Source of the DNA: Thermococcus peptonophilus
GTDB lineage: Archaea; Methanobacteriota_B; Thermococci; Thermococcales; Thermococcaceae
Direction of reading: 5' to 3'
NCBI RefSeq assembly: GCF_001592435.1
Contig: NZ_CP014750.1
Location: 1 to 64,000 of the forward strand
Length of the DNA: 64,000 nt
This document shows, piece by piece, positions 3,666 to 50,778 of this stretch (the first letter of the stretch is position 1; each line of letters begins with the position of its first letter). The translations under genes were made by a program, and so were the position numbers. Below the pieces are notes generated by a model that searched no databases, was not told where the DNA came from, and saw only the letters and a list, made by a program, of their open reading frames with translations.

Positions 3666-3876
3666 TACAAACGTCATTATAGGAGCCTTTTTTTACAATT
3701 CGAATCATCCTCAATTAAAGCAGACTTATTTCCTAGCCCTTGCCCTTGAGAGGGGATACTCTCTAATAACCCGTGATAAACCTATGTGTGCCCATGCTAA
3801 CAGTCTTGGCGTGCACTGTCTCTTAATTGACGAATCCATGGGTGAAGATGACATCAGAAAGTTTATGGGGGTGTAA
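3634..3876 (+). pseudogene. internally deleted VapC-type PIN toxin
   Basis: 80 codons that keep the first PIN strand (FVIDTNVIIGAFFYNS) and the C-terminal part (FLALALERGYSLITRDKPM). The middle third of the domain is missing; PIN toxins are usually 125-150 residues. The acidic residues normally placed around positions 40 and 90 are gone: the segment before FLALALERG reads LKQTY instead of an acidic pair. RNase activity is therefore unlikely. It overlaps the DUF104 antitoxin gene by 32 nt, the usual arrangement of an intact operon, and the GGGP synthase gene begins two bases after its stop. Confidence 0.7.
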
Positions 3877-39334: not shown

Positions 39335-41425
39335 TCAGAAGACCATGGCTTTCCTCTTTTTCTCCACTATCCCAACATCGCTGTTGTAGTCCATCTCGAT
39401 GCCGAAGACACCGAAGCGCTCGTAGAGGTCTTCGCTGGAGAACTTCGCCTCGTTCAGCACCCATATCGGAACGTTCACCGTCTTTTCGATGACGAATATC
39501 GTAGCCCTCAGCCTCTCCTCGTCGCTCAGCTCTTCCCAGTTCGAGGCGTACTCAAGGGCGGTGTCCAAGAACGGTCTTGGAACGGCAGGCAGGCTAATGA
39601 AGGTGTCCCTTGTTGACAGCCAGTCCTCGCTCCCCTTCCACCTAGACAGCGTTTTCAGGGTTTTCCTCATCAACCAGTGTTGACTTATGGCCCTCTCAAA
39701 TCCGCTCCAGATCTCCTCGTAGAATCTGTCGTTAAGTCTGAGAAGGTAGAGCTCGCTTCCAATCCCTTCAAGCTCACCGAGCAGATTAACGCTCGCCTCG
39801 AAGCTCTTTTTGTCGTAGGGGAGGTGGGTTTTCTCCCCCTCAGGCTCGAATATAAGTGCTTTTCCCTTCTTCAGCCCCCTCCTGTTCACCCTCCCGAATC
39901 TCTGCACAAGGGCATCGAGTGGGGCGACCTCAGTATAGAGGACGTCATAGTCTATGTCGAGCGAAACTTCAACCACCTGGGTCGCCACGAGGATACCGCT
40001 CTCGATACTCTCAACGAGCTCCATCTTTTTCCTCTTGTCCTCGTTGGTGAAGCGGGAGTGGAAGAGGTAAACGTCCTCCCTCTTCCCCTTCAGCTCCGTG
40101 TAGAGCTCTCTCGCCCTCGTTACGGTGTTCGCAACCACGAGCACTTTTCCCCTCTCCCCGGCAATCTCGTCCACCGCGTTGAGCAGGGGTTCGTCCCTCA
40201 CTTCCACATCAACCCTCTTCCTTGAAGAATACCTCTCCTCCACCTTTTTGAACGGAATCAGTGGTTTCAGGCCCCTCTTCTCAAGCTCCTCCGCGAGGGG
40301 AGAGGGCAGGGTAGCCGACATGACCGTTACTTCCGCCCCGAGGTGTCTCCTCGCGTACTCAATTCCGTCCAGAATGAGGGAGAGAGTATAGGGGCTGTAG
40401 GCGTGTATCTCGTCTATTATCCAATGTGCACCCCTCAGGGCGAACTCCCTCACAGGATAACGCGGGTAGTTGAGGAAAGCGAGGAGAACCTGGTCCACCG
40501 TCGAGACGAAGACCGGTTTCATAGCATAGCGGTGGAGGAGCCTCTCGTCGAGCGCTCCCCTGTAGTAAAGGCTTAGGAACAGAAGGCTGTGGGCAAAGGA
40601 AACTTTCTCCCCAAACACCGCTTCAAAGCGCCTTCTCATGGCTTCCGTGGTGGTTATGGTGGGGAGGGAGTAGACGAGCTTAACCGCCTCGTCAGGGGTC
40701 GCCAAAAGGCTCGTTTCCGTCTTTCCGTCACCTGTAGGCAGTCTAAAGTATCCCCCTCCCTTTCCGAGGACGGCCAGCTGATAGTCCCTCGGCTCAAAGC
40801 CCCTTTTCTCCAGGTACTCGAGAGTCTTCTCTCTTGCCCAGTCTCCGGAGAGATGGTAGGTTTCTGCTTTCATTCCCGCGCTCTCAAGCCAGTCCGAAAC
40901 ACGGAGAAGGCCGTTGAAGAGGGTGTAGAGCGCGCGGACGTTGACCGGATCGAGGCCGTAGTCCTCAAGGTCTCCCCCAAGGACGGCCTCTCTGAGCTCC
41001 CAGACGAAGTCGGATGGGTTGGATAGTACTTTTCCATCAACTATCAGCTTCTCTCCCCTATCAATCTCCCGCTCGTAGAGGCCCTGGTGGAGATCGGAAT
41101 GGTGTGACAGGATTGAAGCGAGGGCAATGCTCCTGAAGGGTTCATTGCACGCCAGGAAGGCAGAGGCAAGCTCTACTCCAAGGTAAGCGTGCGGTGGAGC
41201 CCTTTTCACATTTCCTTCAAGCTTTGCCTGGAACCTGTCGTCGAGCTTGCCGAGGTCGTGGAGGAAGACGTGCCGCAGGAGGCAGGGTTCGAGGGATGGA
41301 TCGTGCGGCACCTTCGAGAGCAGCACCTTCGCTATCCCTTCCGCCCCCTTGGAGTGCTCGTAGAGGCTCTTATCGGGCTTCGCTTTCTTTTTCTTCATAA
41401 GCTCGACCAGCTCTTCCCACTCCAT
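39335..41425 (-). CDS. cas3: CRISPR effector nuclease-helicase Cas3 (HD fused)
   Basis: 696 residues. The N-terminal HD nuclease has LYEHSKGAEG (His 23), VFLHDLGKLDDRF (HD pair about 53), PPHAYLGVEL and ILSHHSDLHQG (HH). The SF2 helicase has LPTGDGKTETSL (Walker A, about 227), IIDEIHAYSP (DExH), VMSATLPSP and LVQRFGRVNRRG (motif VI). Cas3 is recruited by Cascade and degrades the invader DNA. It is the last gene of cas1-cas2-cas4-cas3, with ATG four bases after the cas4 stop and GGGTGTGAGCT as ribosome site. Confidence 0.96.
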   Translation of the reverse strand: MEWEELVELMKKKKAKPDKSLYEHSKGAEGIAKVLLSKVPHDPSLEPCLLRHVFLHDLGKLDDRFQAKLEGNVKRAPPHAYLGVELASAFLACNEPFRSIALASILSHHSDLHQGLYEREIDRGEKLIVDGKVLSNPSDFVWELREAVLGGDLEDYGLDPVNVRALYTLFNGLLRVSDWLESAGMKAETYHLSGDWAREKTLEYLEKRGFEPRDYQLAVLGKGGGYFRLPTGDGKTETSLLATPDEAVKLVYSLPTITTTEAMRRRFEAVFGEKVSFAHSLLFLSLYYRGALDERLLHRYAMKPVFVSTVDQVLLAFLNYPRYPVREFALRGAHWIIDEIHAYSPYTLSLILDGIEYARRHLGAEVTVMSATLPSPLAEELEKRGLKPLIPFKKVEERYSSRKRVDVEVRDEPLLNAVDEIAGERGKVLVVANTVTRARELYTELKGKREDVYLFHSRFTNEDKRKKMELVESIESGILVATQVVEVSLDIDYDVLYTEVAPLDALVQRFGRVNRRGLKKGKALIFEPEGEKTHLPYDKKSFEASVNLLGELEGIGSELYLLRLNDRFYEEIWSGFERAISQHWLMRKTLKTLSRWKGSEDWLSTRDTFISLPAVPRPFLDTALEYASNWEELSDEERLRATIFVIEKTVNVPIWVLNEAKFSSEDLYERFGVFGIEMDYNSDVGIVEKKRKAMVF

Positions 41426-41428
41426 AGC

Positions 41429-41929
41429 TCACACCCAGCAGAAGTCTCTATAGGCACATCTTTTACAGTAAGGCTTTCTTTCGGCTCTAGGTGGGCTCTC
41501 AAGGGAAATAACCTTTTCGATTCCCCTAAAAGCGTTCTCAAGGGTTTCAACGTCATCCTCGGTCAGCTCGACCTCTTCGGCAGTGCCCTCCCTCGGATAG
41601 GAAACGAGCCCCTTGGCCTTCATCCCGGCCTTCCGGAGGAGGTAGAGGTAGTATTTCAGCTGCCATCTCGCAGGTTCCTCGAGCTTTGAGCTCTTCTTCA
41701 CCTCGATCACCTGGAGGCCATCTCTCTTCCTCACGACGTCGAGCTTCGCCCCCTCAAGGAGAACCTCCCTCCAGTCCCGCTCGTAGGCATCGCCGTGGAT
41801 CATCCTACCTATAAGCATGTCGTCGTTGTCGAAGTCAAAGTTGAGCCCACGCGAGAAGAACCACAGCTCCCTCCTGCAGGCGAAGTAGTACTGCACCATA
41901 ACTCCTGTTATCCTAACGCGTTCCTCCAT
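41429..41929 (-). CDS. cas4: CRISPR adaptation exonuclease Cas4
   Basis: 166-residue RecB-like nuclease with a 4Fe-4S cluster. The N-terminal Cys is in YYFACRRELWFF and the C-terminal Cys cluster in YCKRCAYRDFCWV. Nuclease motifs are GRMIHGDAYERD (His), KLDVVRKRDGLQVIEVKKSSK (Asp and ExK) and RWQLKYYLYLL (QxxxY). It trims protospacers and selects the PAM side before Cas1-Cas2 integration. Its ATG overlaps the cas2 stop by one base (TGATG). Confidence 0.95.
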   Translation of the reverse strand: MEERVRITGVMVQYYFACRRELWFFSRGLNFDFDNDDMLIGRMIHGDAYERDWREVLLEGAKLDVVRKRDGLQVIEVKKSSKLEEPARWQLKYYLYLLRKAGMKAKGLVSYPREGTAEEVELTEDDVETLENAFRGIEKVISLESPPRAERKPYCKRCAYRDFCWV

Positions 41930-42186
41930 CAGATTATCTCCCCCACGGGGCTTTTGTCGGTTCCAATTACGTGGAGCGTGAAGTTTGAACCTGGGAGCTC
42001 GTAGATTAGAACGGAGTCGTTATCCTCAATGAGGTCCTCAAGCGTTCTCTTTATCTCGTAAAGCTGTGCCCTCGTCACTTCGCCCTCGAAGACGCTGTTC
42101 TGGCGCCAGTGGAGGTGAGTCCTGAGGAAGCGGTGAACTTTCGAGACACGCTTAACGTCAACATCATAGACAACTATGACGTACAT
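41929..42186 (-). CDS. cas2: CRISPR adaptation protein Cas2
   Basis: 85 residues of ferredoxin-like fold. MYVIVVYDVDVKRVSKVHRFLRTHLHWRQNSVFEGEV is the canonical Cas2 start with the conserved Asp 8 and the Arg-rich helix; SVLIYEL is the last strand of the core. With Cas1 it forms the spacer integrase. Its ATG overlaps the cas1 stop by one base (TGATG), and its own stop overlaps the cas4 start the same way, so the three are translated as a chain. Confidence 0.97.
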   Translation of the reverse strand: MYVIVVYDVDVKRVSKVHRFLRTHLHWRQNSVFEGEVTRAQLYEIKRTLEDLIEDNDSVLIYELPGSNFTLHVIGTDKSPVGEII

Positions 42187-43139
42187 CACCACCACGCCCG
42201 CAGAGAGGTGTAAGTCTTATCCCCAAATAGGTGCCTAACGAGGGAGTACCCTTCAAGCCTGATGAGGTACCTAATGGAAACGTTCCTCTTGAGCCTCGGG
42301 TGGAGGACTTTCCTCTCAAGCTCGCCGTTAAGCTCTGGCAGAAAAACCCTCAGCCCCTCGCGGTTGAACATGACTCCAACGTCCCTCTCGAAGTGCTCTT
42401 CCTTTATCTTTCCCCTGTTTACGAGCCTCAGAATGACGCGGAAGACCGTTACCGGCTTGAAGATGTCGGCGAAGTCGAGGGCCAGCGAGTACCTCCTCTC
42501 GAGAGGTTCGTGGAGGAAGCTTATGGCAGGGTGGAGGTAGGTCTTCCTTATCTCCGAGAGGGCCACAGTGTATAGGACGGAGTTGCCGTAGCTTATCATG
42601 GCGTTGACCTCGTCCTTAGGCGGCCTTCTGTTCCTCTCCTTGAACTCGAAGTTCTTTAAGAGCGACCCGAAGATCGTGTAGAACTCCTTCCAAAGGGTGC
42701 TTTCAACTCCCATAAGCTCGGCCGGGCTTTCTCCCTCAACTGGAACTTCCTCGATTGCTGAGGCATCGGCGCGGTAGGACTTCAGAAGGGCGAGCATTGA
42801 GGCCTTTATTCCCTTAACGAACTGGCCTGCTATGTAGAGGCGCTTTTCACTGTCAAGGTAGTGCTCAGCCTGCCTTATAACAACGCTCCCGCTCACCTGC
42901 CCCTCGGCGGGCATGTAGGAGCCTCTGTAGTAGCCGTACTTGTTGTAGAAATGGACGGGAACGTTCTTCTCGGAGAGGAGCTTTATGGCGCCGCTCGTCA
43001 GCGTTACTGGTTTGAAGCAGTGCACCTCGCTTGTGGAGTTCACGGGAATGGCCTTCTTCCCGTTTTCGTTCTCGAAGAAGAGGGTGTTGCCCTTCCTCTC
43101 AAGGACACCCATCTGGGTTATGTACACGGGCTTCTTCAT
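42186..43139 (-). CDS. cas1: CRISPR integrase Cas1
   Basis: 317-residue integrase. Metal ligands lie in GVESTLWKEFYTIFG (Glu), THPAISFLHEPLERRYSLALDFADIFKP (His and Asp/Glu). The fold opens with VYITQMGVLERKGNTLFFENENGKKAIPV, as expected. The start ATG at 43139 is only three bases from the terminal degenerate repeat of array 1 (43143-43171), whose last six bases GGTGGT act as its ribosome site. There is no space for a separate promoter between array and gene, so cas1-cas2-cas4-cas3 may be read from the array 1 leader or from a promoter inside the array. Confidence 0.97.
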   Translation of the reverse strand: MKKPVYITQMGVLERKGNTLFFENENGKKAIPVNSTSEVHCFKPVTLTSGAIKLLSEKNVPVHFYNKYGYYRGSYMPAEGQVSGSVVIRQAEHYLDSEKRLYIAGQFVKGIKASMLALLKSYRADASAIEEVPVEGESPAELMGVESTLWKEFYTIFGSLLKNFEFKERNRRPPKDEVNAMISYGNSVLYTVALSEIRKTYLHPAISFLHEPLERRYSLALDFADIFKPVTVFRVILRLVNRGKIKEEHFERDVGVMFNREGLRVFLPELNGELERKVLHPRLKRNVSIRYLIRLEGYSLVRHLFGDKTYTSLRAWW

Positions 43140-43142
43140 AGC

Positions 43143-44313
43143 ACCACCGCACGACTGCGTTCTACGGAAACTTTCCCGGAGAACTCCACTGATTTCGGCC
43201 CGAGGACCAGCATCACCTTTCCACACGATTACGTTCTACGGAAACCTCTACAGGTTCGTCACCATGGAGGAGGCACCAAGGGCTTTCCACACGATTACGT
43301 TCTACGGAAACCCCCTAAGCACTTCATTATCTACTTTGGTCCGTATAATCTTTCCACACGATTACGTTCTACGGAAACGGGTCTTGTCGGTGTCATAAAC
43401 GACTTTGACCTTGTAACTTTCCACACGATTACGTTCTACGGAAACATAAGCGAGAGGGTCTGGAACCTTGAGAATTGTTGAACTTTCCACACGATTACGT
43501 TCTACGGAAACCGAGGCTAACGCTTGAGATGGTCGGAGCGGTCGTATCAGCTTTCCACACGATTACGTTCTACGGAAACGTTGGCATAGCCCTGTGGGTG
43601 AAAAGCGTCCATCAGTGCCCCTTTCCACACGATTACGTTCTACGGAAACGCAATCATCCCTCACAAACGCCGCGTTCTTCGGCGGACTTTCCACACGATT
43701 ACGTTCTACGGAAACCTTCGTGATGGATGCAATACGTCACAGGATCGAGGAATACTTTCCACACGATTACGTTCTACGGAAACCTCGCGACCTCCCCTTC
43801 AATTTTCTCCCGCTCAAGATCTTTCCACACGATTACGTTCTACGGAAACCTCACCATCCCGGCCGGCACGAGCGAGCCGGCGAGAAGCTTTCCACACGAT
43901 TACGTTCTACGGAAACTCTGGCTATTTCCAGAGTCTTACCCTCGAAAAGCAACTCCTTTCCACACGATTACGTTCTACGGAAACAAGAGAAAGTCCAGAA
44001 CGACGAGCCTGTGCAGTGGACTTTCCACACGATTACGTTCTACGGAAACCAGGCAGTACATCAGGCACTCCAGGAGCTCGACAAGCTCTTTCCACACGAT
44101 TACGTTCTACGGAAACCTCTTCGATGTCGATGTTCAGAATATCTCCCTTGGCTTTCCACACGATTACGTTCTACGGAAACGGGTTTGACCTCAGTGCTCA
44201 GGCCAGGACCCTTTCCGCCTTTCCACACGATTACGTTCTACGGAAACTTGGTAGTGAAGAGTGTGGTAAGCTGTGCTTGAAGGCCTTTCCACACGATTAC
44301 GTTCTACGGAAAC
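43143..44313 (-). CRISPR. CRISPR array 1: 18 repeats of 29 nt, 17 spacers
   Basis: Repeat starts on the plus strand are 43143, 43217, 43283, 43350, 43417, 43483, 43551, 43621, 43687, 43755, 43821, 43888, 43956, 44021, 44088, 44152, 44219 and 44285. In crRNA sense (minus strand) repeats begin GTTTCCGTAGAACG and end CGTGTGGAAAG. Seventeen are identical. The one at 43143 is degenerate at its 3' end and marks the old, leader-distal end. Spacers are 35-41 nt, except the last one next to the degenerate repeat (45 nt). The leader is on the right (44314 onward), so transcription is leftward, toward cas1. Cleavage by Cas6 should leave the 8-nt handle GTGGAAAG. Confidence 0.98.
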
Positions 44314-44774
44314 ACTTCACTTTCCTCCTTCATTTGACAAATAAAGTGATTTCCCAACTCCTATTTAAGGCTTTCTTTGGGAACCCGTGGCACTGCACCC
44401 CATTTATAAACCTGACACAAAAACGAAGAACCCACCAAAGGGCTTGGAATTGTGACAACACACTTCAAAACATTTGAAAATTCTATTTCAAAAATCGAAA
44501 CTAAGTTTAATAAATTTATGGCCAATAAAATCATTGAAAACAAAATCCATGGACAAAGAGGACTTTTCAACTATCTAAACTCCAGAGACTCTACTTCATT
44601 TGCATATTTGGGACTTTTTATGTCTTTTATGCAAAACGTATCCATTCAGCGAACTCTTACCACCAGTATGGTAAACAGAAAATGAAAACTCTTCTAATCA
44701 ACATAAATCTTTTTTAAACCCTTTAAATCAACTAAAATCAAAAACATAGAGTGAACAGAAAGTGAAATGAGATT
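44314..44774 (-). promoter_or_regulatory. leader of CRISPR array 1 and cst operon 3' region
   Basis: 461 AT-rich nt without a gene. The first 105 nt match leader 2 almost base for base and hold a conserved TATA box (TTTATAAA, 44403-44410) and a second TATA-like element (CTTAAATAG near 44362-44369). Next to the array are a palindrome ATTTG-A-CAAAT (44332-44342) and CACTTT/AAAGTG arms (44318-44323, 44343-44348), both conserved in leader 2 and likely integration-anchoring signals. An 18-bp palindrome lies at 44657-44674. The right end holds oligo-T runs on the minus strand that could end the cas5 mRNA. Confidence 0.8.
44657..44674. promoter_or_regulatory. leader-associated palindrome, copy 1
   Basis: TTACCACCAGTATGGTAA has TTACCA/TGGTAA arms and is followed by ACA. 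A near copy occurs at 51121-51138 at almost the same distance from the other array (343 nt against 342 nt from the last base of the first repeat), while most of the sequence between is not conserved. A protein-binding site for leader control is the simplest reading. Confidence 0.5.
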
Positions 44775-45458
44775 TCAGAACACGAAAACAGGTTCTCCGT
44801 CAAAGAGTAGCACGCTCGCTGGATTGGCGAGCTCCACGAAGCCGCCGGCGAAGGCTATGACCCGCTGGTAGACCGCCCTCCTCTTCTTCCCGCTGTAGGT
44901 AAAGTCCACGGGCATTCGGTACTCCCTGGGCGTCAGGTTGTTCCGTCTCATCACGAGGAACCTCGCGCCCCTGGCGTAGTCCTCGGCCGGGATGATGCTC
45001 TTCAGCGTGCTTTCCCTCCCCTCCTCGACCTCGACTACTTTCATCCACTCCCTCTTTGCTGGGTAGAGTAGGCTCTCGCTGTCCCCAACGTAGGGGGCAA
45101 ATACCGGATCGAGGAGGGCATCGTAGGCCTTTTCTATTAGTTTATCATCGCCCGCAAAGAACATACGGTAGTGAGGCCTGTGGAAGAGCACCTTCGTTAT
45201 TGGATAAATGGGGGCGCTGGCGTTCTTGAATATCGCCGCCGTCTCCTCCACCCTCGCTCCAGGGTCTTCTACTACGACACCGTACTTTAGCTCATTCAAG
45301 AGCTTTCTGAAGCCCTCCTCCGGCAGCCCCATGGCCCCAGCGACCATTCCTATCGCCGTTGTCCTCGGTGGGAATGGATAGCTGTCGAGGAGGAGGGAGT
45401 TGTAGGGAATCCTGAAGTGCGCCTGCAGGGGCTTTACTTCCACGACGAGGCCCAGCAC
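44775..45458 (-). CDS. cas5: type I-B Cascade subunit Cas5 (Cst5-like)
   Basis: 227-residue RAMP protein. The N-terminal strand and loop (LGLVVEVKPLQAHFRIPYNSLLLDSYPFPPRTTAIGMVAGAMG) is the Cas5 hallmark, where the pocket holds the 5' handle of the crRNA. The rest is a compact RAMP with Gly-rich turns (FAGGFVELANPASVLLF). It caps the foot of the Cascade backbone with Cas8. The GTG at 45458 has GGTGAGTGAC upstream; a GTG at 45467 is also in frame but lacks a site. The gene overlaps or abuts the cas7 stop and is the last of the cas6-cas8-cas7-cas5 operon. Confidence 0.9.
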   Translation of the reverse strand: MLGLVVEVKPLQAHFRIPYNSLLLDSYPFPPRTTAIGMVAGAMGLPEEGFRKLLNELKYGVVVEDPGARVEETAAIFKNASAPIYPITKVLFHRPHYRMFFAGDDKLIEKAYDALLDPVFAPYVGDSESLLYPAKREWMKVVEVEEGRESTLKSIIPAEDYARGARFLVMRRNNLTPREYRMPVDFTYSGKKRRAVYQRVIAFAGGFVELANPASVLLFDGEPVFVF

Positions 45459-45459
45459 G

Positions 45460-46443
45460 TCACTCACCGAGCTTCAGGTTTTGTATCCTCTCCCTCAGCT
45501 CCTTCATGCTGAGAACCTCTACCTTCTCCATTCCCTCAAAGGCCTTCTTAAGCTCGTCCACGTTGGCGAAGCGGTTTTCGAAGAGGCCGATGTAGAGCTT
45601 CTCTATGTTGTCGTCAAACGCCTCCACGGTCTCCTTGAGGAGGTCAACGTCGAGGACGAGCTTTCCGTCAACGTAGCCGGGCTTCACGCGGAGAGCGTCC
45701 CCGATTACTGGAATCTTGTACCTCAGCAGGGCGACGACCATCACCTCGGGATAGACCTTGGTGAAGAAGTTGCTGAGCTTTGCGCCGCCGTGGTACTGCA
45801 TTATAGCCTCAAGCAGGGCCTTCAGGCGCTTCTCCCGCTCCTCCTTCGGGAGAATGTAGAGCGTAACTTCCTTTCCCGTGGCGTCCTTCTCCTTTTTAGC
45901 CTCAAGGCCCTCAAGTTTGGGAACCTCAAGGCCCTCCTTGAAAACGCCGAGCCTGTCAACCTCTATGAAGAAGTTGCCCCTCATGACGTTGGTGGTTATC
46001 TCGGTCTCGTATATGTTGTGGTTGTCCCCGCTCGGGTCGTAACGGACCCCAAAGTCCCTGTCCTCCTGATAGGGGAAGATTGATATCATGCCGTTTGTTC
46101 TGACGACGGCTGTCCTCTTGGGGTCTTTCACATTACCAACTTTCTTTCCTGCGAGCATGTAGCCAAAGAGGTCGTCGTCTATGTACTTGTGCGGCTCGCC
46201 GAGGGAAACTATGACCTTTTGGCCGCCCTCGCTCTTTGGAACGACCTGGCTCAGATCCCAACCAAGCTCCTTCAACAGCTGTCTGAGGTGGTACTTAACG
46301 CTCTGGCCGCTCACTCTGACGTACTCCCTACCATCAATGGGGTCGCGCACCTTCTTGAGGACGGCGATAACGCCCTCAGTCCCGTTCGAGTTCAAGTTTG
46401 CACCTTCAACCTTCGTCAGGGTAACGACCTCAATCGCCTTCAC
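45460..46443 (-). CDS. cas7: type I-B Cascade backbone subunit Cas7 (Cst2/DevR family)
   Basis: 327-residue RAMP. EVVTLTKVEGANLNSNGTEGVI at the start, VRVSGQSVKYHLRQLLKELG (about 44) and TNVMRGNFFIEVDRLGVFKEG mark the Cst2/DevR family that coats the crRNA spacer in Tneap-type Cascade. Start is taken as the GTG at 46443, with GGAGGTGATAAGG just upstream inside the cas8 end. A GTG at 46452 would add three residues, but then the ribosome site overlaps the start. The 14-nt overlap with cas8 suggests coupled translation. Confidence 0.93.
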   Translation of the reverse strand: MKAIEVVTLTKVEGANLNSNGTEGVIAVLKKVRDPIDGREYVRVSGQSVKYHLRQLLKELGWDLSQVVPKSEGGQKVIVSLGEPHKYIDDDLFGYMLAGKKVGNVKDPKRTAVVRTNGMISIFPYQEDRDFGVRYDPSGDNHNIYETEITTNVMRGNFFIEVDRLGVFKEGLEVPKLEGLEAKKEKDATGKEVTLYILPKEEREKRLKALLEAIMQYHGGAKLSNFFTKVYPEVMVVALLRYKIPVIGDALRVKPGYVDGKLVLDVDLLKETVEAFDDNIEKLYIGLFENRFANVDELKKAFEGMEKVEVLSMKELRERIQNLKLGE

Positions 46444-47758
46444 CCTTATCACCTCCGTAGAGAGCGTTCAGCATCCCGTTGAGCAGGATCGCCTTCACGA
46501 CCTTCCATTCATTGCGGTTCTCGTAGACGGGCCTGAGGTCGAGGCCCGTCTCAAGCTTCGCCTGGAGCTCAACGAGCTTGTTCACAAACTCCTCGAAGCC
46601 CCTTGCCCTGAAGAGCTCCCACTGGTAGCGCTCAAGGTTCGTGCCCTTCATGGCTTTCCCAAGGGCGTAGCCGAGCCCGTTAATCTTCTCGAAAGTCTCC
46701 TTGTCCACAACATCACCCCCGAAGGCTTCAAAGTAGGAGCGGGCCCAGGTGAGGTAGTAGGCAGGGAGCGGCAGTTTGTTCTTCACCCGCTCCATGAAAA
46801 TCCCGTTTAAAAGAACGAAATCGAACCTTCCCGAGAGGAGCCTTGAGATGAACTCCTCCCGCTCAAGGAAGTTCTTAGCCCTGTCCTTTCCCCTCGGTAT
46901 CTCAAGCATCTCGTAGAAGAGCACCACACCGGAGTCCCTCCTTTCGAGGTGCCGTTTTCCCCAGTTCGTCTCCTTCCCCGCTTCCTGAACTCTATCAATG
47001 AACCCGATGAGCCTCTCAAGGGTCGTGCCCTCTATCGTTCTCTCTTTGTATATCTGGCCCGAGCCGTAAACCAGGTATGCCCTAACGGTTCTTCCAACTT
47101 CAACGGTTTCCTTCAGCATCCTCCTGTTCTTGAGGAACTTGACGAACTCGTGGAGAACGGCAAAGAAGGCCTCGTTCGGGTGGTACCTGCTGAGTGCCAG
47201 CTTGGCGCTTATGGAGTACCTTTTCTTTCCGTCCCTTGTCTCTGCCGTGACCTTGAAGTTTTCCATCCAGAAGTCGTCCTTGAAGGTTTTCTTGAAGCGC
47301 TTCAGATCGCGTTCAGGGGCGTCGAAGAAAAAGCGGAGCGTTGAGCCTCCAACCGGGACGGTGTAGAGGTAGGCCATCGCGGAGTAGAGCTTGAAGGCAT
47401 GCTCGATGCAGAAGTGTAATCTGCCATTGTCCGATACTATTGAATCTATCTTCCTCTCGAAGGGAAAAATGAACGATTTATTACTCACTATCTCTTTCTT
47501 CTGCCCGCAAAGCGAACATACTCCCTTTTTTGATTTGGTGAGGCTCTGATGGATCTTCACTTTGTTGTCACTTTTTGGAAGCTCAAACTTGAACGCTCGG
47601 AGAACCGATATCGCGTCTTGCTCTGAATCAACGGGAGCGCCGTTGGTCATCTCCGAGACTGGCAGTAGATAGTTTTCATTGATGACCCCTGGTGTTATCT
47701 CCTCAATTCCCATCTCCCGGAGAAAGAGCTCGCCGTTCTTGAGGTATGCGTCTAGCAT
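46430..47758 (-). CDS. cas8: type I-B Cascade large subunit Cas8 (Cst1 family)
   Basis: 442 residues. The zinc-finger half CSLCGQKK (about 96) is the Cst1 mark, with another Cys/His pair in LHFCIEHAFKLY about 50 residues later. The remaining sequence is mostly helical and poorly conserved, as usual for large subunits. It should recognise the PAM and recruit Cas3. The ATG at 47758 is preceded by GGAGGTGAGTTGCCGG, whose TGA is the cas6 stop, so spacing is tight and the genes are surely co-transcribed. Confidence 0.88.
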   Translation of the reverse strand: MLDAYLKNGELFLREMGIEEITPGVINENYLLPVSEMTNGAPVDSEQDAISVLRAFKFELPKSDNKVKIHQSLTKSKKGVCSLCGQKKEIVSNKSFIFPFERKIDSIVSDNGRLHFCIEHAFKLYSAMAYLYTVPVGGSTLRFFFDAPERDLKRFKKTFKDDFWMENFKVTAETRDGKKRYSISAKLALSRYHPNEAFFAVLHEFVKFLKNRRMLKETVEVGRTVRAYLVYGSGQIYKERTIEGTTLERLIGFIDRVQEAGKETNWGKRHLERRDSGVVLFYEMLEIPRGKDRAKNFLEREEFISRLLSGRFDFVLLNGIFMERVKNKLPLPAYYLTWARSYFEAFGGDVVDKETFEKINGLGYALGKAMKGTNLERYQWELFRARGFEEFVNKLVELQAKLETGLDLRPVYENRNEWKVVKAILLNGMLNALYGGDKGEGD

Positions 47759-47766
47759 CCGGCAAC

Positions 47767-48480
47767 TCACCTCCAAATAGGATTAACAAAGCCAAAGCCG
47801 AGACTGTTCTTTTCCCCAAGGCCGACATCCATGAGGAAGCGGTAGAACTTCCTCTCCTCTGGTTTTATGCGCTCCTTTTCGAGAAGCTCCCAGTTGGAGC
47901 CGATGACTGGAAAAGGAACCCCGTTCTTGACGACCTTCACGTAAACGTCTATCTTCCCATTCTGTCTAACTTTTGGTATCATCCTATCAAACAACGGGCC
48001 TTCGAGGGAAAGTTCCTCTCCATAGAAGGCGTTGTACTTCTTCTCGGCGTTCTCTTTAAGACGATCGAGAAAAAAGCGCAGGTCCCTATGGGCGTGGAGC
48101 TTGAAGTACTCGTTTTTGCTGGCGTTCCTGTAGATGACAACCGGTGAGCCTGTCTGGAAGGCTTTCCTAAGAGGGAGCCTGAACTTTCTGAGCTCCGCAA
48201 CTTGGTACTCATTCTTCCCGATGTGGATACTCTCCCTTTCCTTGATGGTCGAGTGAAGGGCATTAATGAAGCCTCTCTCTGGGGAGGAAACTATAAAAGT
48301 CGGCCTCCCCTCCCTGTCCAAGAAAAAGTCAGAGAACGTGAAGAACTTGAACTTCGGCTGGTCGTGTCTCTCCCCGTACTCAGTTCCTTTCAGCATGTGG
48401 TAAATAAAGCCTTGGACTGCGTGCTTATTCGGTCGCGAAAACTCGTTATTTAAGGATATTAGTGTTAACTTTAGTCTCAT
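47767..48480 (-). CDS. cas6: CRISPR repeat endoribonuclease Cas6
   Basis: 237-residue double-RAMP RNase that cuts pre-crRNA in the repeat. The C-terminal Gly-rich loop GLGEKNSLGFGFV is diagnostic. By comparison with P. furiosus Cas6 (Tyr31, His46, Lys52), Tyr27 (in FIYHMLKG), His39 (in ERHDQ) and Lys45 (in KFKFFTF) are the likely catalytic triad. It is the only Cas6 here and must serve both arrays, although their repeats differ at two positions. The ATG follows GGTGAAAATT. Its own promoter and a dyad lie upstream (48492-48540). Confidence 0.94.
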   Translation of the reverse strand: MRLKLTLISLNNEFSRPNKHAVQGFIYHMLKGTEYGERHDQPKFKFFTFSDFFLDREGRPTFIVSSPERGFINALHSTIKERESIHIGKNEYQVAELRKFRLPLRKAFQTGSPVVIYRNASKNEYFKLHAHRDLRFFLDRLKENAEKKYNAFYGEELSLEGPLFDRMIPKVRQNGKIDVYVKVVKNGVPFPVIGSNWELLEKERIKPEERKFYRFLMDVGLGEKNSLGFGFVNPIWR

Positions 48481-48491
48481 AATTTTCACCA

Positions 48492-48540
48492 GACAACACG
48501 AGTTGTCGATTACATCCTTTGTTATCCGTGCTTATAAATT
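48492..48540 (-). promoter_or_regulatory. promoter and dyad of the cas6-cas8-cas7-cas5 operon
   Basis: AATTTATAAG (48531-48540, minus strand) is a TATA box about 52 nt before the cas6 ATG. Downstream, at 48492-48507, is a perfect inverted repeat of 6-bp arms, GACAAC and GTTGTC, with a 4-bp centre, ending 12 nt before the ATG and covering the expected start of transcription. It may be an operator for Cascade expression. Confidence 0.55.
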
Positions 48541-48597
48541 TTACTTTCAAATAGCTATTTGGGATATTATCATTGTGGGAGAGAAGACTAGATGCTG

Positions 48598-50778
48598 GAA
48601 TTCGTACGATTATGTCCTACGGAAACAGAACGGCAACGGGATAATTACACGGAAGCAAAAGTTATTTCCACACGACTACGTTCTACGGAAACTTACCCTT
48701 TCTTTTTCTGGCTCTTCTGCTAGAATTCAAAAATTTCCACACGACTACGTTCTACGGAAACCAGCCGCGATGACGACGGGAATGTGCTCCTCTCTGAATT
48801 TCCACACGACTACGTTCTACGGAAACTTCAGAATGCGGGCGACGAGGTTAGTATTAGCGTGGATTTCCACACGACTACGTTCTACGGAAACCGGGGAAGG
48901 TCCCGCGGGCGGGCCGTTGAAAGGCCCGGATTTCCACACGACTACGTTCTACGGAAACTTTTCAGGTTTGATGTGTGCCAGCAATAACACTTCTAATTTC
49001 CACACGACTACGTTCTACGGAAACCCTCGAGCTGAAAGACATAGAGACGGGGCTATTTGGTTCATTTCCACACGACTACGTTCTACGGAAACGTGAGGGG
49101 TCTTCAGATCCGCGTGAAGGAGCTCGAGGAGAGGGTATTTCCACACGACTACGTTCTACGGAAACTCAAACTGGTAGGCCTCGGGCTGGCTGCATGTTTT
49201 TCGTATTTCCACACGACTACGTTCTACGGAAACCCGAAGATCATGAGAGCAATGCCCCAAATCAGGTGGGATTTCCACACGACTACGTTCTACGGAAACT
49301 TCTCCAGGAACTTCTGAAAGCCAACGAGGAACATTGATTTCCACACGACTACGTTCTACGGAAACGTCGCCCTCTTTCCTGTACAGGCCGGACTTCTTCG
49401 AGATTTCCACACGACTACGTTCTACGGAAACAATTTCCGCGTGCTCAACCGTCGTAAGGTTCCCAAAATATTTCCACACGACTACGTTCTACGGAAACTC
49501 TGAAAGCTGAAAATGAAAAACTGAGGAAGGAGCTATTTCCACACGACTACGTTCTACGGAAACAAGGGTGTTTATGCCATTAAGGTGAACGGAAGAACAT
49601 ATGATTTCCACACGACTACGTTCTACGGAAACCCCTGTTGAGTCGAAGCGCCAGGCCTTGATGGCTAATTTCCACACGACTACGTTCTACGGAAACGTGT
49701 TCTCCAGTACCCGGAGTTTGAACTCGACGGCGATTTCCACACGACTACGTTCTACGGAAACCAGAATAGCTGTGAAAACAAATGATGGCTTTACAGCGAC
49801 ATTTCCACACGACTACGTTCTACGGAAACATCGTCCGTGACGGTCTGCGTGCTCAGGTTGCCGAGGATTTCCACACGACTACGTTCTACGGAAACCCCGA
49901 TTCTGCCCGTCACGAGGCTCGGATTTGTCCCGTATTTCCACACGACTACGTTCTACGGAAACCGAAAGGGGCTTCTCAACGTATTACTCACAAAAAAGAA
50001 AGCATTTCCACACGACTACGTTCTACGGAAACGTTCAGGAGCTCAACCACGTGGGCCAGCCTCAGGCCAGATTTCCACACGACTACGTTCTACGGAAACA
50101 CATTTACATCGACAATGCTCTTGTCGCATCTAAGGCTGATTTCCACACGACTACGTTCTACGGAAACTGTTCCCTGAGTGCTTTAGGCAGGTGTATCAAC
50201 CTGTTATTTCCACACGACTACGTTCTACGGAAACCTCTTCATATATTCAAAAGATACGAGCATTCTCGACAGCTATTTCCACACGACTACGTTCTACGGA
50301 AACGCGCCCTAGATAGGTGGGTCTCGAAGAGGAAGCTCGATTTCCACACGACTACGTTCTACGGAAACCTCAAGCTTCGGCTACGAGAGTGAAGGCTTCC
50401 TCCGTATTTCCACACGACTACGTTCTACGGAAACCGGACGAGGAGGAGCGTTTCAAGAACGCTCGGAGAGAAGATTTCCACACGACTACGTTCTACGGAA
50501 ACGGCAAGGACGCAGTGAAGTACCTGGAGGAGGTTGTGCCATTTCCACACGACTACGTTCTACGGAAACCTGGTCAAAATAAGCTCCAATCATCGCCTCG
50601 AACTTGTCAGATTTCCACACGACTACGTTCTACGGAAACTTGTCTTCCACGCTGGTCTCGGTTTGTAGGCAATGAATACTCATTTCCACACGACTACGTT
50701 CTACGGAAACGCCCTGCCCAACTTCTCCAGCTCACCCATGATGGCCTTGATTTCCACACGACTACGTTCTACGGAAAC
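48598..50778 (-). CRISPR. CRISPR array 2: 33 repeats of 29 nt, 32 spacers
   Basis: The first canonical repeat on the plus strand starts at 48664, the last at 50750. A degenerate repeat at 48598-48626 marks the old end. In crRNA sense repeats begin GTTTCCGTAGAACG and end CGTGTGGAAAT. Compared with array 1 there is G for A at position 17 and T for G at position 29. Thirty-two repeats are identical to each other. Spacers are about 36-41 nt. The leader is on the right at 50779 onward, so transcription is leftward, toward cas6, whose start lies 118 nt beyond the degenerate repeat. Confidence 0.98.

Follow-up and report, generated by a model that had tools for sequence, protein, structure and literature searches.

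A terminal CRISPR repeat joined to the cas1 ribosome-binding site in Thermococcaceae may let Cas6 set the 5' end of the adaptation-gene mRNA

The window, a 64,000-nt stretch at the start of a Thermococcus peptonophilus contig (NZ_CP014750.1), carries on its minus strand a CRISPR-Cas locus in which array 2 is followed by cas6, a gene in the cas8 position, cas7, cas5, a leader, array 1, cas1, cas2, cas4 and cas3 (Table 1). The locus resembles type I-B CRISPR-Cas in that its cas1 and cas7 match I-B models (Cas1b, TIGR03641, 408.9 bits for a cut-off of 304; Cst2/DevR Cas7, TIGR02585, 282.7 bits for a cut-off of 72.8), and it differs in having an array within the operon, where it separates cas5 from cas1. 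Cas5 is recognized by the general Cas5 model and falls below the cut-offs of the best I-B Cas5 models. The cas8-position protein had zero Pfam or NCBIfam matches, despite being conserved at 53-85% identity in relatives. The repeats of the three arrays of this genome (the third at 1654477-1656204 of contig 1) differ slightly, with A17 or G17 and a final G or T, and are uniform within each array.

Table 1. Features of the CRISPR-Cas locus (window coordinates)
Feature	Coordinates	Strand	Remarks
cas3 (HD + helicase)	39335..41425	minus	
cas4	41429..41929	minus	
cas2	41929..42195	minus	
cas1 (type I-B, TIGR03641)	42186..43139	minus	profile match
cas1 ribosome-binding site, GGTGGT	43143..43148	minus	3 nt before ATG; fits GGDGRD
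Degenerate terminal (trailer-end) repeat of array 1	43143..43171	minus	reads GTTTCCGTAGAACGCAGTCGTGCGGTGGT from 43171 to 43143
Terminal repeat, nt 1-21	43171-43151	minus	mostly kept
Terminal repeat, handle, nt 22-29	43150-43143	minus	now GCGGTGGT
Putative Cas6 cut, repeat nt 21/22	43150..43151	minus	from the 8-nt handle rule of Thermococcales and the conservation boundary
Penultimate repeat, intact	43217..43245	minus	cut before 43224 would give cas1 an 85-nt 5' UTR
CRISPR array 1	43217..44313	minus	17 identical 29-nt repeats, GTTTCCGTAGAACGTAATCGTGTGGAAAG
Leader of array 1	44314..44774	minus	two TATA-like boxes, 44410-44403 (TTTATAAA) and about 44368-44362 (TTAAATA), conserved in relatives
cas5 (from GTG 45458)	44775..45458	minus	
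cas7 (Cst2/DevR, type I-B)	45460..46443	minus	
cas8-position protein	46430..47758	minus	442 aa
cas6	47767..48480	minus	
cas6 BRE/TATA (AGTAAAATTTATAAG)	48531..48545	minus	65 nt before ATG; internal control
CRISPR array 2, upstream of cas6	48597..50778	minus	own degenerate terminal repeat near 48598-48626

Array 1 closes at its leader-distal end with a degenerate repeat that stands in register behind a slightly long last spacer of 45 nt and is therefore not a chance match. This terminal repeat agrees with the array repeat at 22 of 29 positions, and the mismatches (positions 15, 17, 23 and 26-29) are not scattered: nt 1-14, 16 and 18-22 are intact, and what has been lost is the 3' handle. It is followed by GCT and then by the cas1 ATG at 43139-43137. 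The sequence-only reading had described a repeat that ends in GGTGGT where the array has TGGAAAG, with this ATG three bases further on, which is exact (the ending in full is CGGTGGT), and had taken GGTGGT(G) for the ribosome site of many genes in the window; GGTG indeed lies upstream of 27 of the window's 46 large ORFs, and GGTGGT upstream of 6 of the 46. GGTGGT also fits the ribosome-site consensus published for T. kodakarensis, GGDGRD (PMC4247193). The cas1 start is placed at ATG 43139, where relatives open with MK[KR]PVYITQMG; an in-frame upstream GTG at 43226 is not conserved in relatives and was rejected.

The junction holds up in related genomes. Using Cas1 as query on 94 Thermococcaceae genomes, we recovered 24 loci of this cas1 subfamily, and in 20 of them cas1 begins 3-65 nt beyond the end of an array. 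The array lies 150-280 nt from cas1 in L025 and L037, cas1 has no same-strand array in L035/L062, and L016 is cut by a contig end. The gene order cas6-cas8-cas7-cas5-leader-array-cas1-cas2-cas4-cas3 is conserved across genera. Nine loci, the window and eight relatives, have a fused junction, the ATG following the 29-nt repeat after 3-4 nt; junctions of presumed Pyrococcus type, so labelled from their repeat type, read GTGGGCTGGAGGCT-ATG and those of Thermococcus type GTGCGGTGRTGCT-ATG. A single origin of the fused state was rejected, as the Cas1 tree, whose backbone is not settled, requires at least two changes.

Several relatives depart from this layout in ways of their own. In L081 (genome G080), a 47-repeat array ending near 3834 on the minus strand retains the fused junction (GCGGTGGTGATATGAAGAGGCCC...) in front of a cas1 that stops after about 28 codons, and the 3' part of cas3 persists downstream; the adaptation genes survive there as a remnant. 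In L033, a partial tandem copy (GTTTCCGTAGAAGTTTCCGTAGAAC) is present in the terminal repeat some 35-45 nt ahead of cas1, as if a duplication had been aborted. The cas6 and cas8-position genes, adjacent in the window, are separated by about 7 kb in L051 (8411-15867), where the intervening stretch holds six large same-strand ORFs (783, 292, 294, 280, 463 and 428 aa); similar gaps occur in L050, L055, L056, L057, L061 and L063, and the stretch is possibly a type III module.

Unfused relatives bear on the origin of the ribosome site. In L018 (GGTTGGTGGTTTC-ATG) and L020 (GTGGTGGTTCTC-ATG), GGTGGT stands 3-4 nt before the ATG, outside the repeat, so that the site seems to be cas1's own and likely predates the fusion. 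The sequence-only reading had proposed that decay of the repeat was the source of the translation signal; a truncated repeat is indeed fused to the site, but the proposal is weakly supported, since L018 and L020 have the site without the repeat. Five point changes within the repeat are a possible route, and a single deletion joining a handle-less repeat to an existing ribosome site would be a simpler one.

The same reading had seen no room for a cas1 promoter, and two simple home-made matrices, one built on consensus and one trained on CRISPR leaders only, bear this out over the 120 nt upstream of cas1 in 16 array-linked loci, where scores under both equal background. With cas6 (14 loci) as internal control, medians were 10.5 for cas1 versus 15.8 for cas6 by the consensus matrix (P = 5e-6) and -0.2 versus 9.2 by the leader-trained matrix (P = 2e-5), Fisher and Mann-Whitney P values being too small throughout because the loci share ancestry. 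The leader-trained matrix gives a window background with a median of about 0 and a 95th percentile of 6.9. In the array-cas1 loci, the BRE/TATA of cas6 usually lies 54-67 nt before the ATG, and cas6 too follows an array in several of them. At cas1 itself, a TATA box is seen in L062 (genome G009), where the neighbouring array is divergent; it lies at -56 and scores 16.5 (consensus) and 8.7 (leader-trained). That cas1 lacks its own promoter in array-linked loci is thus well supported as a matter of matrix scores rather than of start-site mapping. Conserved TATA boxes were found in the leaders of nearly all arrays inspected. The sense strand of array 1 contains no T5 run, and none of 17 cas1-adjacent arrays has one within 120 nt past the repeats, versus 7 of 28 other arrays (P = 0.03).

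Comparison of 20 cas1-adjacent terminal repeats with their own arrays revealed a single change in all over nt 2-13 and none at nt 18, 20 or 21, versus changes in 50-95% of repeats at nt 23-29; the handle is lost in 19 of the 20. Among 28 trailers of other arrays of the family, nt 18, 20 or 21 is changed in 11, and half retain most of the handle. This contrast in core loss (0/20 versus 11/28) gives a Fisher P of 0.001 overall and 0.0002 among handle-less repeats, with shared ancestry ignored. These 28 trailers contradict generic terminal-repeat decay as a full account, and the description of the oldest repeat as decaying does not fit one whose 5' 21 nt are preserved and whose loss is confined mainly to the handle. 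The conservation boundary coincides with the step between T21 and G22, where Thermococcales Cas6 leaves an 8-nt handle, the position for this repeat being deduced by analogy.

Part of this conservation reflects more than copying from the array. L014 and L021, at a cas1 dS of 1.44, are identical over terminal nt 14-21 and differ at 1 of 19 sites over nt 14-32. Their arrays, by comparison, disagree at 4 of the 8 positions of nt 14-21, so the terminal segment was not copied from the array. Across L014, L021 and L023, whose cas1 synonymous sites differ at 44-68%, terminal repeats differ at 0-1 of 8 positions in nt 14-21 and arrays at 2-4 of 8. Only 1-3 of 19 sites over nt 14-32 have changed between species with cas1 synonymous sites near saturation, and terminal nt 14-21 are shared despite array divergence; nt 14-32 thus belong to the cas1 leader and are under constraint there. 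In several other loci, identity to the own array up to nt 22 makes it seem that unequal crossing-over refreshes the 5' part of the terminal repeat.

We infer that these data are best explained by transcription running on from the array into cas1, with the 5' end defined by Cas6, and we give a probability of roughly 0.6 to cas1 being read from the array transcript with its 5' end set by Cas6 at the terminal repeat. Transcription would start in the leader of array 1, or perhaps further upstream in cas5, and yield pre-crRNA and adaptation-gene mRNA in one molecule, with cas1-cas2-cas4-cas3 as its 3' part. Cas6 would cut this RNA at every repeat. In the terminal repeat, the part that Cas6 should need (nt 1-21 and the cut site) is retained, and the 8-nt handle could be dispensed with, there being no following spacer for it to serve; the freed space would hold, or abut, the cas1 ribosome site. 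A cut between T21 and G22 (43151 and 43150) would produce an mRNA beginning GCGGUGGUGCU-AUG, with an 11-nt 5' UTR that includes the ribosome site, and might help cas1 expression. In T. kodakarensis, the median 5' UTR measures 16 nt, and the 5' end of crRNAs is extended by 8 nt (PMC4247193), the handle length reported for Thermococcales Cas6 (PMC3124441, PMC4247193). Were the terminal repeat left uncut, the intact penultimate repeat should still be cut, leaving the 85-nt leader, and Cas6 would set the 5' end either way, as the sequence-only reading had proposed. A hairpin masking the SD or start codon until the Cas6 cut (CGUAG with CUAUG) was considered and rejected: folding was no better than in shuffles (z -0.44, +1.13), and growth temperature makes short stems doubtful.

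Whether the terminal repeat itself is cut is where the closest alternative parts from this scheme. If Cas6 cut intact repeats only, the cas1 mRNA would start in the penultimate repeat and the terminal repeat would be a passive fossil. Background promoter scores at cas1 fit this equally well, no crRNA was detected from the last spacers beside degenerate repeats in P. abyssi, where such terminal repeats appear unproductive (PMC3124441), which counts against a terminal cut, and array recombination explains some of the core identity (L018, L019, L020, L028 and L029). We nevertheless regard it as doubtful, since nt 14-21 are kept between species whose arrays differ there and the core, often lost elsewhere, is never lost beside cas1; in haloarchaeal type I-B systems, moreover, Cas6 cleaves even strongly degenerate repeats (PMC8501985). 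It is distinctly unlikely that the terminal repeat is kept solely for translation, for its SD and the spacing of that SD, or through recombination with the array, with Cas6 playing no role in cas1 expression: the SD does occupy nt 24-29 and several loci have their 5' part copied from the array by crossovers, but constraint reaches nt 14-21, upstream of the SD, and copying fails to account for L014, L021 and L023.

Equally little probability attaches to a non-canonical or spacer-borne cas1 promoter near the array end, which would make the junction incidental packing. Cryptic promoters can occur in spacers (PMC10883916), and scores of 13-16 arise upstream of cas1 in four loci, of which L021, L027 and L028 have weak TATA-like stretches and L026 has a better one (16.0). 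The last spacers of the window, on the other hand, are GC-rich and without a TATA match, their score of 9.0 being equalled by 77% of background windows; last spacers vary between species, which leaves no conserved promoter there, and the cas6 promoter is clear in these genomes. The L026 match is a possible TATA box 45 nt before cas1, formed by a truncated repeat end and trailer (GTGTTTAAATAAG), and is perhaps a promoter arising at a repeat edge.

Control of spacer-acquisition genes in archaea is poorly known. Read-through with Cas6 processing at the terminal repeat would place the memory (the array) and its writing machinery (Cas1-Cas2-Cas4) on one transcript, parted by Cas6; it predicts a cas1 mRNA 5' end at a single nucleotide, 43150, and would give a reason for the persistence of handle-less terminal repeats. 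More tentatively, the last repeat might be a conserved regulatory element whose cutting ties expression of the adaptation genes to how far the array is transcribed and Cas6 is active. As each new spacer moves the only promoter about 66 bp farther from cas1, memory length could then feed back on memory formation.

Degenerate last repeats are known from the trailer ends of CRISPR arrays, for instance in P. abyssi (PMC3124441); here, in contrast, the loss falls mainly on the handle and spares the core on the Cas6 side, and the missing part overlaps or adjoins the ribosome site of cas1. The creA gene of type I-B CreTA likewise consists of degenerate repeats in a cas locus that keep the nucleotides for Cas6 cutting, but its product is a regulatory guide RNA (PMC8501985), whereas the product proposed here is the 5' end of the adaptation-gene mRNA. 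The open full-text literature yielded no description of cas1 read from an array, nor of a ribosome site for cas1 lying within a repeat. Csy4 insulation uses synthetic 5' UTRs in which a Cas6-type RNase cuts just upstream of the ribosome site and so standardizes the mRNA 5' end. The arrangement proposed here shares with these designs a Cas6-family cut upstream of a ribosome site, and would differ from them in being natural and lying within a CRISPR locus.
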